From an uncultured Lachnospiraceae bacterium (lineage in GTDB: Bacteria > Bacillota > Clostridia > Lachnospirales > Lachnospiraceae): 47,714 bases of DNA. Location: assembly GCA_947624815.1 (NCBI GenBank), contig CANQME010000007.1, positions 1-47,714 of the forward strand, read 5' to 3'. The position numbers and the translations under genes are program-made. A model generated the notes under the pieces. The model ran no database searches. It saw only the letters and a program-made list of their open reading frames with translations, and was not told where the DNA came from. Below, piece by piece: positions 2,273 to 8,362 of this stretch (within the stretch, counting starts at the first letter, position 1; each line of letters begins with the position of its first letter).

Positions 2273-3040
2273 CTACACGATCTCCTCCAGCGCCCGAATT
2301 TCCACACCTTCCTCCGTCAGCGCCCCGCGGATCTTCTCCACGAACGCCAGCGCCTTCGCGCCGTCCCCATGGACACAGACGGAATCCGCCCGGATCGGAA
2401 TATCCTTCCCGGTGATCGCCGTCACCTTCTGCTCCTTCACCATACGGATCACCCGCGCGATGGCCTCATCCTCATCCGTGATCATAGCCCCTTCCTTGCG
2501 GCGGTTCACCAGCGTCCCGTCCTCTTCATATGCCCGGTCCGCGAAAACCTCCTGCGCCGTGCGGAGCCCCAGATCCATGGCCGCGTGGGCCAGCTCGCCG
2601 CCCGATAAGGCCAGCACGATCAGGTTCGCGTCATACGTCTTCACCGCCTCGCAGATCGCCTTCGACAGCGTATAATCCTTAGCCGCCATATTATAGAACG
2701 CTCCATGCGGCTTCACATGCTGCATCTTCATGCCGTGAGCCCACAGGAATGCGTCCAGAGCGCCCAGCTGATACAGCGTATACGCCTTCGCCTCCTCCGG
2801 CGATACCACCATGTTCCTGCGTCCGAATCCCATCAGATCCGGAAAACCGGGATGCGCTCCCACACGGATGCCTGCGGCAGCCGCCATCGCAATGGTCTTA
2901 TCCATCACCACCGGGTCCGAGGCGTGAAAGCCGCAGGCCACATTGGCGGACGTCACCAGCGGGATGATCTTATCGTCATTTCCCAGTGTATAACGTCCGA
3001 AGCTCTCCCCCAGGTCGCTGTTTAAGTCAACACGATACAT
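2273..3040 (-). CDS. pxpA: 5-oxoprolinase subunit A (LamB/YcsF family)
   Basis: LamB/YcsF-family hydrolase. With PxpB and PxpC the family is known to open 5-oxoproline to glutamate using ATP. The start [15 protein letters not shown] is chosen (ATG 3038-3040, AAGGAG 9 nt upstream); the extra 25 N-terminal residues in the ORF track are not family-like. The protein is 255 aa against about 245 for E. coli PxpA. Conserved blocks are [43 protein letters not shown] and VKPHGAFYN, rich in the Asp/His residues typical of the fold. It is the last gene of the operon after accC, and structured element 2 lies just downstream. Confidence 0.92.
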
Positions 3041-3131
3041 ATCTCTCCACTCCTTTTCCTTCTGTCCGGCAGCCGCCGTCATCTTCCAGATACAGCCCAA
3101 ACGCCGGACACACATACCGGAATCAGCCCTC

Positions 3132-4484
3132 TTACTGCCCCTTCAGCTTCATGAAGCTCTCGATAAACCCGGTATCCGCCTTCCCCTCGATAAACGTCGG
3201 ATGGCGGATGATCTGGTACTGGAAGTCCAGATTCGTCTCCACGCCGATGACCACCATCTCATCCAGCGCCGCGCGCATCTTCAGAAGCGCCGCCTCCCGC
3301 GTAGGCGCATGGACGATGATCTTGGCGATCATGGAATCATAAAGCGACGGGATCTGATAACCACTGTAAAGTCCGGTATCCACCCGGACGCCGTTGCCGG
3401 CCGGCAGATGCACGAACTGCACCAGGCCGGGGCTGGGCATGAAATTCTTCTCCGGGATCTCCGCGTTGATGCGGCACTCGATGGCGTGCCCCGTTGGACG
3501 AATGTCGTCCTGCGTAAAGCTGAGCGGCTCTCCCATCGCTGCCCGGATCTGCTCGATGATCAGGTCCGTGCCGGTCACCATCTCCGTAACGCCGTGCTCC
3601 ACCTGGATCCGCGTATTCATTTCCATAAAATAGAACTCGCCCGCGGGACTTACGATGTATTCGATCGTGCCCGCGTTGGTATATCCCACCGTCTTTGCGG
3701 CCAGAACCGCGTATTCGTTCATCTTCCTTCGCGTCGCATCATCGATGGCCGGCGACGGCGACTCCTCGATCAGCTTCTGATGGTTGCGCTGCACGGAACA
3801 GTCGCGCTCCCCCAGCGCTACTACATTTCCGTGGGAATCCGCCATGATCTGAATCTCCACATGACGCGGATTCACGATACAGCGCTCCAGATACATGGCG
3901 TCGTCGCCGAAAGCGTTGGCCGATTCCCGCTGCGCCATGTTAAACTGAACCTCGAAATCCTCCGGTGAATTCGCCACGCGCATTCCCTTGCCGCCTCCGC
4001 CGGAAGACGCCTTGATCATGATCGGATAGCCGATACGCTCCGCTTCCTTCTTCGCCTCTTCCACATCATAGACCGCCTCCCGGGAGCCGGGCACCACCGG
4101 CACGCCTGCGTCCATCATGGTCTTGCGGGCCTCGGATTTGTTACCCATCCGGTCGATCACATCCGGATCCGGACCGATGAAAATGATGCCGTTCTCCTGG
4201 CATTTACGGGCGAAGGTGCTGTTTTCCGACAGAAAGCCGAAGCCGGGATGGATCGCGTCCGCCTGCACGTTCTCCGCGGCGGCGATGATATGATCCATGT
4301 TCAGATAGCTGTCCCTGGCCGGGCCCTCGCCGATACAGACCCGCTGGTCTGCCAGCTGCACGTGGAGGCTGCTTGCGTCCTCCTTCGAATAGATCGCCAC
4401 GCTCTGGATGCCCATGCACCGGCACGCGCGGATGATGCGGACGGCGATCTCGCCGCGGTTGGCGATCAGAACCTTATTAATCAT
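3132..4484 (-). CDS. accC: Biotin carboxylase subunit
   Basis: ATP-grasp biotin carboxylase that carboxylates the biotin on a carrier protein using bicarbonate and ATP. At 450 aa it is the usual AccC length. Visible features are [17 protein letters not shown] at the N terminus, the ATP-binding glycine loop [14 protein letters not shown] (about residue 157), [18 protein letters not shown] with the catalytic Glu/Arg/His cluster, and the C-terminal biotin carboxylase domain. GGAGGTG precedes the ATG. It sits between accB and pxpA, so I infer it serves the PxpB/PxpC enzyme. Alternatively it could be the cell's acetyl-CoA carboxylase subunit placed here. No accA or accD is in the window. Confidence 0.93.
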
Positions 4485-4501
4485 ATGCCCACCTCCGTGC
4501 G

Positions 4502-4954
4502 TCAGATCTTCTTGACGCGGAACAGAGGCTGTCCGTACTCTACCTTCTGCTCGTTGCTGACCAGAACCGCTTCGATCTCGCAGTCAAACTCGCACTGGAT
4601 CTCATTCATCAGCTTCATGGCCTCCAGAATACAGACCGTCTGTCCTTCCTTGATCCGGTCGCCCACGCGCACGTAAGCCGGGATATCCGGACCCGCCGCC
4701 GAATAGAATGTGCCCACGATCGGCGCCGTGATGAAGAGGACCTCGTCCTCCTCCGCAGGCGCTGCTGCCGGAGCAGGAGCTGCGGCACCCACCACCGGGC
4801 CGCCTGAAGGCATGGCCGGCATTCCGGCCGCCACAACCGGCGGATGATCCAGCTTGCTCATCGTGATCTTCACATCGCCCTCTTTATAGGTAAACTCCGT
4901 CAGCGCGGATTCCTCTATCATCTTCACTAACCCAGCAATCTTCTCAAGATCCAT
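4502..4954 (-). CDS. accB: Biotin carboxyl carrier protein
   Basis: A 150-aa BCCP starting MDLEKIAGLVKMIEES; the track's longer start adds 21 unlikely residues. It has an N-terminal helix-containing region, a flexible Ala/Pro linker (about residues 50-75, GGPVVGAAAPAPAAAPAEED), and a biotinyl-lipoyl domain with the lysine motif LEAMKLMNEI. It carries carboxybiotin between the carboxylase and a carboxyltransferase. It lies 17 nt upstream of accC and about 90 nt downstream of pxpC. The linker and domain layout match acetyl-CoA carboxylase AccB, so the carrier could be shared between enzymes. Confidence 0.92.
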   Translation of the reverse strand: MDLEKIAGLVKMIEESALTEFTYKEGDVKITMSKLDHPPVVAAGMPAMPSGGPVVGAAAPAPAAAPAEEDEVLFITAPIVGTFYSAAGPDIPAYVRVGDRIKEGQTVCILEAMKLMNEIQCEFDCEIEAVLVSNEQKVEYGQPLFRVKKI

Positions 4955-5043
4955 CGTCTTGTTCCCCTTTCTAATTCCTGTCGTCTGTCCCTGCCGCCCT
5001 GTCCGGTCTGCGCTCATTCCGCCGACCGTTTCGGTTCAGGCGC

Positions 5044-6063
5044 TCATTTCTGCATCTGCGACTCGAAGAGCCGTCTCAGTCTCTTGGCCGTCTGGCGGCA
5101 TTCCAGAACCTCCCTGCACGGCCTGTGGATCTTCTTGCGCATCTCGTTTAACTCCTCCAGCTCCGCCAGATACAGCCTCTGGGCCTCCTGCACGGAGATC
5201 GCCTTGAACCGGATCGAGTGATCGGTCTTCCGCTGCACCAGCTTCGGGATATCCACCGACGCCACCGTGGCGATCTTCGGATAGCCGCCGGTGGTCTGCC
5301 GGTCGGCCAGCAGGATGATCGGCTTGCCGTGAGCCGGCACCTGGATGGAGCCGAACGCGATGCCGTCGGAGATCATGTCCTTATCCTCCTTCCGGGAAAT
5401 GAACGGTCCCTCCAGCCGGCAGCCCATACGGTCGAAGTCGCTGGTTACCTTATATTCGCTGCTTAAGAACGTATCAATGCCCTGTTTGCTGAACAGGTAG
5501 TCCTGGGGTCCCATGACCACCCGAAGAGTCGCGTCCTCCTGATCGAATTCGTCCAGATCCAGCGTTCTGGACAGGAAAAACGGCAGATACCGCCTTTTAA
5601 TGCGAAAATTGATATAGTCTCCGTCCTGGAGCTTTCTTCCCTTGAAGCCGCCGATGGAGCTCTTCATGTTCGTACAGCGGCTGCCCATGACCACCGGAAC
5701 CTTTAAGTAGCTGGAAAACGCCACATACCCCCTGCTTCCGGTGCGGGCGCTGGAGAATTTCAGCACATCGCCCTTATTGATGTAAATGGCCGTATACATG
5801 GGCGTCGGTTCCCCGTTGATCGTAGGCTGGAAATCGCCGCCCGTAATGGCGATCAGCGTGTCCGCCGTGAATTCCAGCGTCGGGCCGATCAGCGTAAACT
5901 CCAGCACGGCCTCATTTTCCGGATTGTCCAGAAGGAGGTTCGCGATCTTAAAGGAACGCACATCCATAACGCCTGCCACCGGGAAGCCCTGGCTCTGGTA
6001 GCCGGTTCGCCCCAGATCCTGTACGGTGGTCATCATACCTGCCTTGATGATACGGATGCCCAT
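5044..6063 (-). CDS. pxpC: 5-oxoprolinase subunit C / biotin-dependent carboxyltransferase-like (AHS2, KipA)
   Basis: AHS2/KipA-family protein, homologous to part of the carboxyltransferase region of urea carboxylase and a subunit of bacterial 5-oxoprolinase. The family signature VQDLGRTGYQSQGFPVAGVMD is at residues 13-33. I start at MGIRIIKAGMMTTVQD (ATG 6061-6063, GAGGAGG upstream), which nearly abuts the pxpB stop and implies translational coupling. The 339-aa length exceeds the roughly 310 aa of E. coli PxpC. The extra is a basic, helical C-terminal tail (about the last 60 residues, QRLYLAELEELNEMRKK and onward). Its role is unknown. Confidence 0.9.
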   Translation of the reverse strand: MGIRIIKAGMMTTVQDLGRTGYQSQGFPVAGVMDVRSFKIANLLLDNPENEAVLEFTLIGPTLEFTADTLIAITGGDFQPTINGEPTPMYTAIYINKGDVLKFSSARTGSRGYVAFSSYLKVPVVMGSRCTNMKSSIGGFKGRKLQDGDYINFRIKRRYLPFFLSRTLDLDEFDQEDATLRVVMGPQDYLFSKQGIDTFLSSEYKVTSDFDRMGCRLEGPFISRKEDKDMISDGIAFGSIQVPAHGKPIILLADRQTTGGYPKIATVASVDIPKLVQRKTDHSIRFKAISVQEAQRLYLAELEELNEMRKKIHRPCREVLECRQTAKRLRRLFESQMQK

Positions 6064-6064
6064 G

Positions 6065-6793
6065 CTACGCCTCCTCTCTGCGGACCGGACACTCATACTC
6101 GCCCCGGTCCACCAGCTCTTTGATCCGCTTATATTCCGCCTCGTCGATGGGAACGAAACGGATGTATTCGCCGGCCTGCACCATGATCGGCGTCTCCCTT
6201 GCCGGATCGTAGGTCTTCACCGGCGTCATGCCCATCAGTTGCCATCCGCCCGGAGAATCCAGGGGATAGATACCGGTCTGGGATCCGCCGATGCCGACGC
6301 TTCCCGCCGGGATCTTCAGCCGCGGATTGGCCAGACGCGGCGTATGGATGCGCTCGTCAAGACCTCCCAGGTAACAGAAGCCGGGCAGAAATCCCAGCAT
6401 ATAGATCAGATAGTCGCTGGAGGAATGGATCTTGACGACCTCCTCCTGCGTAAGGCCCGCGTGCTCCGCGATATAAGGCAGATCCGGTCCATATTCTCCG
6501 CCGTAGAGAACCGGGATCTCGAAGATCTTCTTCATCTGGGCTCCGGCGCGGACTTCCACCTTCAGGATCCCCTCGATCCGCTTCTTCATCTGCTCATAGC
6601 GGATGACGCGGGGATCGTAATTGATCAGCAGGGAGCAGAATGCCGGGATCACGTCCACCACGCCCTCGATGTTCTGCTCGTGCATGAGCTTCACGGTGGC
6701 CGCGATCTTCTGGTTGATCTGCGGGCTGATCTCCGAACCGAATTCGACCAGCAGGGAGCTGTCTCCCGCGGTCAGGATCTTAATGTTCTGCAT
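6065..6793 (-). CDS. pxpB: 5-oxoprolinase subunit B (AHS1, KipI)
   Basis: AHS1/KipI family, partner of PxpC. The start MQNIKILTAGDSSLLVEFG is taken because it matches family N termini; the first 50 residues of the track ORF are low-complexity read-through. An AGGAG lies about 14 nt upstream, rather far. Conserved C-terminal block: FLPGFCYLGGLDERIHTPR, PAGSVGIGGSQTGIYP and SPGGWQLMGMTP. At 242 aa it is slightly longer than E. coli PxpB (218). The gap to the transporter gene upstream is 215 bp, the longest in the operon, with only weak short hairpins visible. The family name KipI comes from a Bacillus sporulation-kinase inhibitor, but the metabolic role fits this operon better. Confidence 0.9.
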   Translation of the reverse strand: MQNIKILTAGDSSLLVEFGSEISPQINQKIAATVKLMHEQNIEGVVDVIPAFCSLLINYDPRVIRYEQMKKRIEGILKVEVRAGAQMKKIFEIPVLYGGEYGPDLPYIAEHAGLTQEEVVKIHSSSDYLIYMLGFLPGFCYLGGLDERIHTPRLANPRLKIPAGSVGIGGSQTGIYPLDSPGGWQLMGMTPVKTYDPARETPIMVQAGEYIRFVPIDEAEYKRIKELVDRGEYECPVRREEA

Positions 6794-7008
6794 AAAATGT
6801 CGCTTTGCTCCTCTCCCGCCGCGCCCGTCCCAGCAGACGGTGCGGCGTTCCTGCCAGTTATTTCTTCCTCGTACCTTTCCGTCTTCCCGATCCTTAAACC
6901 GCCCGGACAATGCATCCGGCCGCGCCGCAGCATCTGCGTCCAAGATAGGAAGAAAGGCGCAACCGGATCTTGCGTAGATTGCACCTTCTTCGGAAATGAT
7001 TCGTTTTA

Positions 7009-8238
7009 TTATCCGAGCAGACTCCCCATGTTGGACATGAAGGTCGTGATTCCCAGGTAAGCGGAGATGACCACTACGATCACGCCGAGTACCAGAAGAA
7101 CTGTCGGATGCTTGTAATCGTCGCCCATGATCTTCTTGTTCTTCGCTGCGATCAGGCAGATGCCCAGGGTGATCGGCAGGATCAGGCCGTTCACCGCGCC
7201 CGCCAGGATCAGCATCGTCGCCGGCGTGGTTCCGATTGCCAGCATGATGATCGCGGATACCACGATAAATCCGATCACGACCCAGTTCTCATGCTCGGCG
7301 ATCGCCGGATGGAAGGTCTTAAGGAAGGAAACCGACGTATAGGCTGCGCCGATGATGGAGGTAACGGCCGCGCACAGGATCACCAGACCCGCGAAGCGGT
7401 AGCCGATCTCGCCGGCGCCGCGCCTGAACGCATCCGCCGCCGGGTTCGAAGCATCCAGCGCGTCTCCGCCGGCCAGCTTCACGACGACGCCCAGAACCGC
7501 CAGGAAGAGGAAGATCCGGACGATGGTTGCGATTCCGATTCCCATAACGGAGCTCTTATTGATCTCCTTCAGATTCTTCTCGCCGGTGATACCCGCGTCG
7601 ATCAGACGGTGGGCGCCGGAGAAGGTGATGTAGCCGCCTACAGTGCCGCCCAGAAGGGTGATGATCGCCGGAACCAGAGCGCCGTATCCGGTGGAAGGAA
7701 CGACCGTGTTCACAAGCGCTTCGCCAACCGGAGGCTTCACGATGATAATGATAATGAAGATGACCACGATCATGATACCGCCCAGGACCTTCGCCAGGTT
7801 ATCCATCGCCGCCTTGGCGTCCTTGATCAGGAATACCGCGATCGCGATGATGCTTGCCAGCGCGCAGCCCGCCTTGGTCGGAAGACCCAGAAGCGTATTG
7901 AAGCCCAGGCCGCCGCCGCCGACGTTGCCGATGTTGAATACCAGTCCGCCGAACGCGACCAGTATGGAAACCACATAGCCAAGTCCGGGAAGGATCTTAT
8001 TGGCCACATCCTGTCCGCGCAGGCCCGATACGCACAGCACTCTCCAGATGTTGATCTGCGCGATGGCCGCCAGAACGATGGAAGCCAGGATCACGAACCC
8101 GAAGCTGGCCTTATGGGTACCGGTGAAGCTTGCCGTCTGTGTCAGAAAGCCCGGTCCGATCGCCGATGTTGCCATGATAAATGCCGCCCCCAGCAGCGCC
8201 CCTCCGCCGCTTTTCTTCTTTGTCTTGTTGTCTGCCAT
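7009..8238 (-). CDS. NRAMP-superfamily transporter, YcsG-like
   Basis: A 409-aa polytopic membrane protein with about 11 hydrophobic segments and a Lys-rich N terminus (MADNKTKKKSGGG). The ATG at 8236-8238 follows AAAGGAGG. It resembles YcsG, the NRAMP-family protein in the Bacillus ycsF-kip cluster. The metal-ligand motifs of true Mn/Fe NRAMPs are absent: TM1 reads SAIGPGFLTQ where DPGN is expected, and TM6 reads FSGAHRL where MPH is expected. This argues against classical divalent metal transport. As first gene of the operon it probably imports the substrate, plausibly 5-oxoproline or a related lactam/amide, which is inference from context. Confidence 0.85.
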   Translation of the reverse strand: MADNKTKKKSGGGALLGAAFIMATSAIGPGFLTQTASFTGTHKASFGFVILASIVLAAIAQINIWRVLCVSGLRGQDVANKILPGLGYVVSILVAFGGLVFNIGNVGGGGLGFNTLLGLPTKAGCALASIIAIAVFLIKDAKAAMDNLAKVLGGIMIVVIFIIIIIVKPPVGEALVNTVVPSTGYGALVPAIITLLGGTVGGYITFSGAHRLIDAGITGEKNLKEINKSSVMGIGIATIVRIFLFLAVLGVVVKLAGGDALDASNPAADAFRRGAGEIGYRFAGLVILCAAVTSIIGAAYTSVSFLKTFHPAIAEHENWVVIGFIVVSAIIMLAIGTTPATMLILAGAVNGLILPITLGICLIAAKNKKIMGDDYKHPTVLLVLGVIVVVISAYLGITTFMSNMGSLLG

Positions 8239-8314
8239 GATATATCCTCCTTTTGAGTGGGTCATCCTGCCGACACATGCGCAAACCTGATTCTGCATCA
8301 CCGGAAAATGACTT

Positions 8315-8327
8315 CATCACTGTGATG
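8315..8327. promoter_or_regulatory. Palindromic candidate operator at the operon start point
   Basis: CATCACTGTGATG is a perfect 6+1+6 palindrome at about +1 to +13 of the predicted transcript, where a bound repressor would block initiation. A further GCATCAC half-site lies about 20 bp downstream in the transcript direction. No regulator gene is adjacent, so the cognate protein is unknown. Confidence 0.5.
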
Positions 8328-8333
8328 CAATGC

Positions 8334-8362
8334 ATTATAACTGACAAAATCCGGTTTGTCAA
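8334..8362 (-). promoter_or_regulatory. Consensus sigma-A promoter of the ycsG-pxpBC-accBC-pxpA operon
   Basis: On the minus strand: TTGACA (8357-8362), 17-bp spacer, TATAAT (8334-8339). Both hexamers are perfect. Such a strong core promoter next to a palindrome suggests repressor control. The leader is about 90 nt. Confidence 0.85.

Follow-up and report, generated by a model that had tools for sequence, protein, structure and literature searches.

A Lachnospiraceae operon linking pxpABC to biotin carboxylase genes: a likely split, biotin-dependent lactam carboxylase-hydrolase

The window analyzed here, 47,714 nucleotides of contig CANQME010000007.1 (GenBank assembly GCA_947624815.1) from an uncultured gut bacterium of the Lachnospiraceae, carries on its minus strand (2273-8362) an operon with the gene order Nramp-type transporter, pxpB, pxpC, accB, accC and pxpA, all of which have strong Pfam matches. 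We conclude that this operon probably encodes a split lactam carboxylase-hydrolase that depends on biotin and bicarbonate, with 5-oxoprolinase as its most likely activity. The parts of this reading differ in strength. It is highly probable that accB and accC, encoding a biotin carboxyl carrier protein (BCCP) and a biotin carboxylase (BC), are dedicated to the pxp operon, as indicated by gene order, the intact BC and BCCP sites, the separation from acetyl-CoA carboxylase (ACC) and fatty-acid synthesis, and co-inheritance. There is also a good probability, of a lesser degree, that the system works by carboxylation with PxpB and PxpC as the carboxyltransferase (CT).

A preliminary description of this DNA listed accC, pxpB, pxpC and accB as separate genes accompanied by a LamB/YcsF hydrolase and a transporter, and the Pfam searches bear this out, with all six genes on the minus strand. 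The pxpB gene (6065..6793) encodes CT subdomains C/D (AHS1/KipI; CT_C_D, E 1.3e-77), its product scoring 226.7 bits against TIGR00370 (PxpB; cut-off 145.6), and pxpC (5044..6063) encodes CT subdomains A/B (AHS2/KipA; CT_A_B, E 2.4e-90). The LamB/YcsF ring-opening subunit is encoded by pxpA (2273..3040; LamB_YcsF, E 2.4e-103), and has PH0986, TTHB195, YbgL and PA4511 as relatives in the Protein Data Bank (PDB). Between these genes lie accB (4502..4954; Biotin_lipoyl, E 1.5e-18) and accC (3132..4484; Biotin_carb_N, CPSase_L_D2 and Biotin_carb_C, down to E 3e-75). The locus thus unites pxpA, pxpB and pxpC, as in a PxpABC 5-oxoprolinase, and also the full set of BC, CT_A_B, CT_C_D and biotinyl domains, for which a Pantoea urea carboxylase served as the comparison.

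The hallmarks of a biotin-dependent carboxylase are all present, namely the catalytic BC residues, the biotinyl-lysine motif and a biotin ligase in the genome. AccC is 49% identical to E. coli AccC and retains every E. coli BC active-site residue checked (K116, K159, E201, H209, Q233, H236, K238, E276, E288, N290, R292, Q294, E296 and R338, in E. coli numbering), and alignment of AccB with its E. coli counterpart reveals the biotinylation motif EAMKLMN. The two proteins also pass the NCBI equivalog models for ACC (AccB, TIGR00531, 146 bits against a cut-off of 115; AccC, TIGR00514, 648 bits against 626.5). These scores would suit the explanation that accB and accC serve ACC and fatty-acid synthesis and lie beside the pxp genes incidentally, and work on Staphylococcus aureus assigns this same accBC pair to fatty-acid synthesis (PMC11315280). 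As AccB and AccC of a pxp operon pass them, such models cannot distinguish pxp use from ACC use.

Genome content weighs heavily against service to ACC. The genome containing the window (G000; 3.54 Mb in 207 contigs, 87.8% complete) yields one Biotin_carb_C match, making the operon's accC the sole BC found, and no Carboxyl_trans (AccD), AccA or FabD was found in this 87.8% complete assembly, so that the sole BC has no ACC to serve. Incompleteness could explain one such absence, but the same pattern is seen in four more complete congeners, G008 (98%), G012 (97%), G015 (98%) and G020 (99%), each of which has a single BC, located in the pxp operon, and in none of which an ACC-type AccA/AccD or FabD was found; FabD, the one fab gene searched, is taken to represent the entire fatty-acid pathway. 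The AccA matches that these four genomes do give are weak (34-41 bits) and belong to Carboxyl_trans proteins of the decarboxylase type. G020 has no biotinyl-domain match other than the pxp AccB, and it keeps the BirA ligase; no second biotinyl domain for a two-subunit pyruvate carboxylase was found there, the search not extending to that enzyme's own family. Within the genus, AccA, AccD and FabD are absent from G000, G004, G008, G012, G015, G020 and G021, while other congeners carry an acc-fab operon. Judged by gene content, these ACC-less species seem to be without fatty-acid synthesis.

Genomes that do have ACC carry a separate accC for it, within the ACC operon. Six relatives (G003, G007, G022, G023, G025 and G030) have two BCs each, one beside AccD/AccA-type genes and the other in the pxp operon, and a contig scan added twelve further genomes, each with an AccA and at least two BCs, among them Blautia caecimuris, Robinsoniella peoriensis, Streptococcus porci, S. 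moroccensis, Globicatella and Leptotrichia hongkongensis. A tree built from 44 BCs shows the accC genes linked to pxp in this clade as monophyletic (98% SH-aLRT), with the ACC accC genes of the same genus in a separate group (99% SH-aLRT); the PxpC tree contains a clade matching that of the pxp-linked accC. A stand-alone BC away from any Carboxyl_trans gene occurs in 15 of 17 genomes with PxpC and in 0 of 44 without it. This association, from a set of 61 relatives, gives a Fisher p of ~2e-12, with the reservation that related genomes are not independent, and is not attributable to chance. The module is furthermore conserved over several phyla, plasmids included. Service to ACC is therefore essentially refuted for the genomes lacking FabD and ACC, and we regard it as highly improbable overall. 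The preliminary description had named fatty-acid synthesis as the alternative role of accBC and had suggested looking for another accB-accC near accA/accD. That search returned one BC and no ACC in the window's genome and a separate second copy in ACC-bearing relatives, and the alternative is largely excluded by the lack of AccA, AccD and FabD in this genome and four congeners.

The structure of PxpC is in keeping with a carboxyltransferase. A model built from 50 sequences reached a pLDDT of 91.3 (an earlier one from five sequences had reached 42) and superimposes on E. coli YbgK (Z 41.0, rmsd 1.4, 300 residues) and on the CT part of Kluyveromyces lactis urea amidolyase (Z 37.6, rmsd 2.1, 308 residues); as modeled, PxpC has the urea-carboxylase-type CT fold. 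Its score against NF045499, the NCBI PxpC equivalog, is 242 bits, below the cut-off of 500, and it passes only the broader TIGR00724 family. In urea carboxylase, CO2 passes from carboxybiotin to an amide nitrogen by means of this same CT fold. In the operon, the transporter would import a lactam, AccC would carboxylate the biotin on AccB with ATP and bicarbonate, and the PxpB-PxpC carboxyltransferase would move this carboxyl group onto the amide of the lactam, much as urea carboxylase does with urea. PxpA would then hydrolyze the activated ring, and the N-carboxy product would shed CO2 to give glutamate. In this scheme the identity of the substrate, its carboxylation by PxpB-PxpC and the sequence of events are inferred. 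The split biotin-dependent carboxylating system of the preliminary description is partly supported: the absence of ACC here and the separate ACC-operon copy elsewhere uphold the dedication of accBC and point to PxpB/PxpC as the CT, which would probably act on the lactam amide.

A survey of biotin carboxylases from 2011 recorded adjacent genes that are homologs of both CT halves of urea carboxylase, their function then being unknown. According to its title, PDB entry 9yx5 shows MSMEG_0435-MSMEG_0436 bound to the long chain acyl-CoA carboxylase complex of Mycobacterium smegmatis, and allophanate hydrolase subunits 1 and 2 are listed among its chains together with the AccA3 BC-BCCP subunit; as far as title and chain list go, this is a physical association of PxpB/PxpC homologs with a biotin carboxylase system.

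The same domain set and PxpC fold would also fit a split urea carboxylase, in which urea would be the substrate of AccBC and PxpBC and the product would pass to PxpA or another enzyme. Deletion of mumC in Acinetobacter baumannii, which by gene order encodes a homologous BC-BCCP, makes the bacterium unable to use urea as its only source of nitrogen (PMC5050338). However, deletion of mumH, by gene order a PxpBC-type CT, left urea use intact in the same work, and a MumC-MumH urea carboxylase is hard to square with that result. The operon is also without an allophanate hydrolase, PxpA belongs to the lactam-opening LamB/YcsF family, and D-glutamate cyclase neighbors point to 5-oxoproline. We consider urea carboxylation quite unlikely.

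For the lactam carboxylase-hydrolase that we favor, 5-oxoproline is reasonably likely to be the main substrate. D-glutamate cyclase makes 5-oxo-D-proline, and two accBC-linked operons carry its gene. PxpABC converts 5-oxoproline to glutamate in Bacillus subtilis and Corynebacterium glutamicum, and growth of the latter on 5-oxoproline requires its YcsG-like transporter PxpT (PMC13274462); it is this growth role, together with the cyclase neighbors, that points to the substrate. The transporter encoded in the window (7009..8238; Pfam Nramp, E 7e-25) is a member of the Nramp superfamily of the YcsG/PxpT/MumT type. B. subtilis YcsG has been reported as a manganese importer, but the protein of the window lacks both the DPGN and the MPH metal-site motifs of canonical Nramp metal transporters, which makes a metal role less likely, and it scores 33 against the MntH subfamily model, whose cut-off is 430.

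Other genomes share this architecture. Metagenome assemblies of Lachnospiraceae with the label 'Lapin' contain near-identical loci. Of the 80 nearest loci by PxpC (71-98% identity), the order with accB and accC is preserved in 77; two of the other three end at a contig edge and one is a split operon in Leptotrichia. In L. hongkongensis (L136, L233), Nramp-pxpB-pxpC-accB lie at one place and accC-pxpA together ~40 kb away. Beyond these relatives, the BC, BCCP, PxpA, PxpB and PxpC module occurs in other orders in Lactiplantibacillus plantarum plasmids, Limosilactobacillus fermentum, Rubrobacter, the archaeon Natronorubrum and Thioclava; in A. baumannii it takes the form of two fusions, of BC with BCCP and of PxpB with PxpC. 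On the lactobacilli plasmids (L071:2428-8702 and L237:1972-7474) the whole pxpBC-accBC-pxpA-transporter module is found, with transposase genes near the former, and a study of Lactiplantibacillus pentosus interpreted the additional accBC as a second copy of ACC (PMC12427679). The loci of Rubrobacter, Natronorubrum and Thioclava (L073:4097-5017, L076:4102-5001 and L078:3139-4014) have a PxpB-like protein of ~290-306 aa and a BCCP of ~77-80 aa, and this form is a second, divergent architecture of the module. On a quick PxpC tree the accBC label must change four times or more, two of the changes being forced by well-supported branches; gain or loss of the linkage was therefore not a single event. 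A C-terminal PxpC tail, considered from a 12-sequence alignment as a marker of accBC-linked operons, was rejected as it is equally long in plain PxpC; the same alignment contained no stretch conserved enough for scanning.

Several observations weigh against the biotin-dependent reading. The calls of absence rest on draft genomes, that of the window being 87.8% complete. Several relatives encode a methylmalonyl-CoA-decarboxylase-like CT, a theoretical alternative partner for the BC, which usually has its own BCCP and is also present in genomes without any BC. In the literature, direct phosphorylation of 5-oxoproline by PxpBC is assumed (PMC13274462). Within a phylum sample of 249 evenly chosen genomes, 74 had PxpC, and of the ~70 loci read, only two besides that of the window (L192 and L202, from distant genomes) are accBC-linked, these in another gene order; the others are plain pxpABC, with or without Nramp. 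As most PxpABC operons are without accBC, it is not evident that ring opening by these enzymes depends on a BC of its own. Finally, no residue signature separating accBC-linked from plain PxpB/PxpC was found. The prevalence of the plain form and the lack of a residue signature would be expected if PxpABC were biotin-free here as assumed elsewhere, with AccBC carboxylating a different substrate or tuning the pathway. Set against this are the failure to find any other CT partner in the window's genome and the recurrence of the BC/BCCP-PxpABC module in separate lineages with different gene orders, and we judge a biotin-free PxpABC to be rather unlikely. One relative, G030, carries both plain pxpABC and an accBC-linked operon (loci L053 and L043), a co-presence that suggests the two are not redundant.

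The lack of a residue signature between linked and plain PxpB/PxpC would also fit a more general proposal, that PxpABC is biotin-dependent throughout, its ATP requirement being that of BC, and that accBC-linked operons supply BC and BCCP themselves while plain operons borrow the BC/BCCP of a housekeeping carboxylase. Such borrowing is hinted at by the PxpB/PxpC homologs on the M. smegmatis carboxylase complex, as described in its PDB entry. A draft genome with plain pxpABC and no BC match (G047, 77% complete) argues to the contrary, and the proposal is possible but doubtful.

The operon is preceded by a predicted promoter (8334..8362, minus strand), TTGACA-17-TATAAT, which on the letters agrees with the sigma-70 consensus at 12 of 12 positions and stands ~90 nt upstream of the first start codon, at the right edge of the region marked in the preliminary description. 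Start codons are at 8238, 6793, 6063, 4954, 4484 and 3040, each preceded by a purine-rich, ribosome-binding-like sequence. An Rfam search of the window gave no match.

If the proposed chemistry is correct, a biotin enzyme whose target is the nitrogen of a lactam would take its place alongside urea carboxylase, and the view of how the widespread prokaryotic 5-oxoprolinase spends ATP would change. No proposal of a biotin-dependent 5-oxoprolinase was found in the open-access literature searched, which leaves most subscription papers and preprints outside. The ACC-less Lachnospiraceae provide a natural knock-out in which the pxp-linked BC is separated from fatty-acid synthesis. They also give cause for caution in annotation, as accB and accC in pxp operons are routinely labeled fatty-acid genes (S. 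aureus, Lactiplantibacillus) or urea carboxylase (A. baumannii); the operons of all three would gain one common, testable explanation.

In comparison with known systems, the operon is a variant of the PxpABC and urea carboxylase kinds, here with a biotin-linked reading, and its form is already known from S. aureus and, by gene order, A. baumannii. With the PxpABC 5-oxoprolinase of B. subtilis, E. coli and C. glutamicum it shares PxpA, PxpB, PxpC and the YcsG/PxpT-type transporter, but the E. coli locus, like most of the phylum sample, lacks accBC, and the ATP step there is assumed to be direct phosphorylation (PMC13274462). Urea carboxylase and urea amidolyase (TIGR02712; PDB 3va7 and 5i8i) have the same parts, BC, CT A/B and C/D, and BCCP, and the same PxpC/CT fold. 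Urea carboxylase is one chain, however, and the operon encodes four, each far below the TIGR02712 cut-off of 1304 bits; a LamB/YcsF protein replaces the allophanate hydrolase of urea amidolyase, and the substrate is presumably a lactam.

The S. aureus genes pxpB-pxpC-accB-accC-pxpA belong to a six-gene operon combining 5-oxoprolinase genes with accB and accC; in the accessible text accBC are taken as fatty-acid genes and a biotin-dependent 5-oxoprolinase is not proposed (PMC11315280). The homologous A. baumannii locus mumTLUHC (PMC5050338) differs from that of the window in its gene fusions and its added D-glutamate cyclase. We matched it to a chromosomal locus deposited as a plasmid (L236:3402-10908), with LysR, Nramp, PxpA, D-glutamate cyclase, PxpB-PxpC (535 aa) and BC-BCCP (573 aa), from the number, order and kinds of genes of mumR-mumTLUHC rather than from a locus tag. 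If the match holds, MumC looks to be BC and BCCP only and MumH a CT without an amidase domain, so that the published names urea carboxylase and allophanate hydrolase would be wrong and the mumC and mumH deletion phenotypes would need another reading. The two-component 5-oxoprolinase of Pseudomonas putida, for which two subunits (64 and 51 kDa) and, as the second component, a protein of 82 kDa are reported, resembles in size the Acinetobacter BC-BCCP (62 kDa), PxpBC (57 kDa) and three PxpA (27 kDa each), a resemblance we offer as a lead only. The M. smegmatis AccA3 complex (PDB 9yx5), to judge from its entry, likewise has PxpC/PxpB homologs bound to a biotin-dependent carboxylase, but as an acyl-CoA carboxylase with a shared BC-BCCP, whereas the operon described here brings its own accBC.

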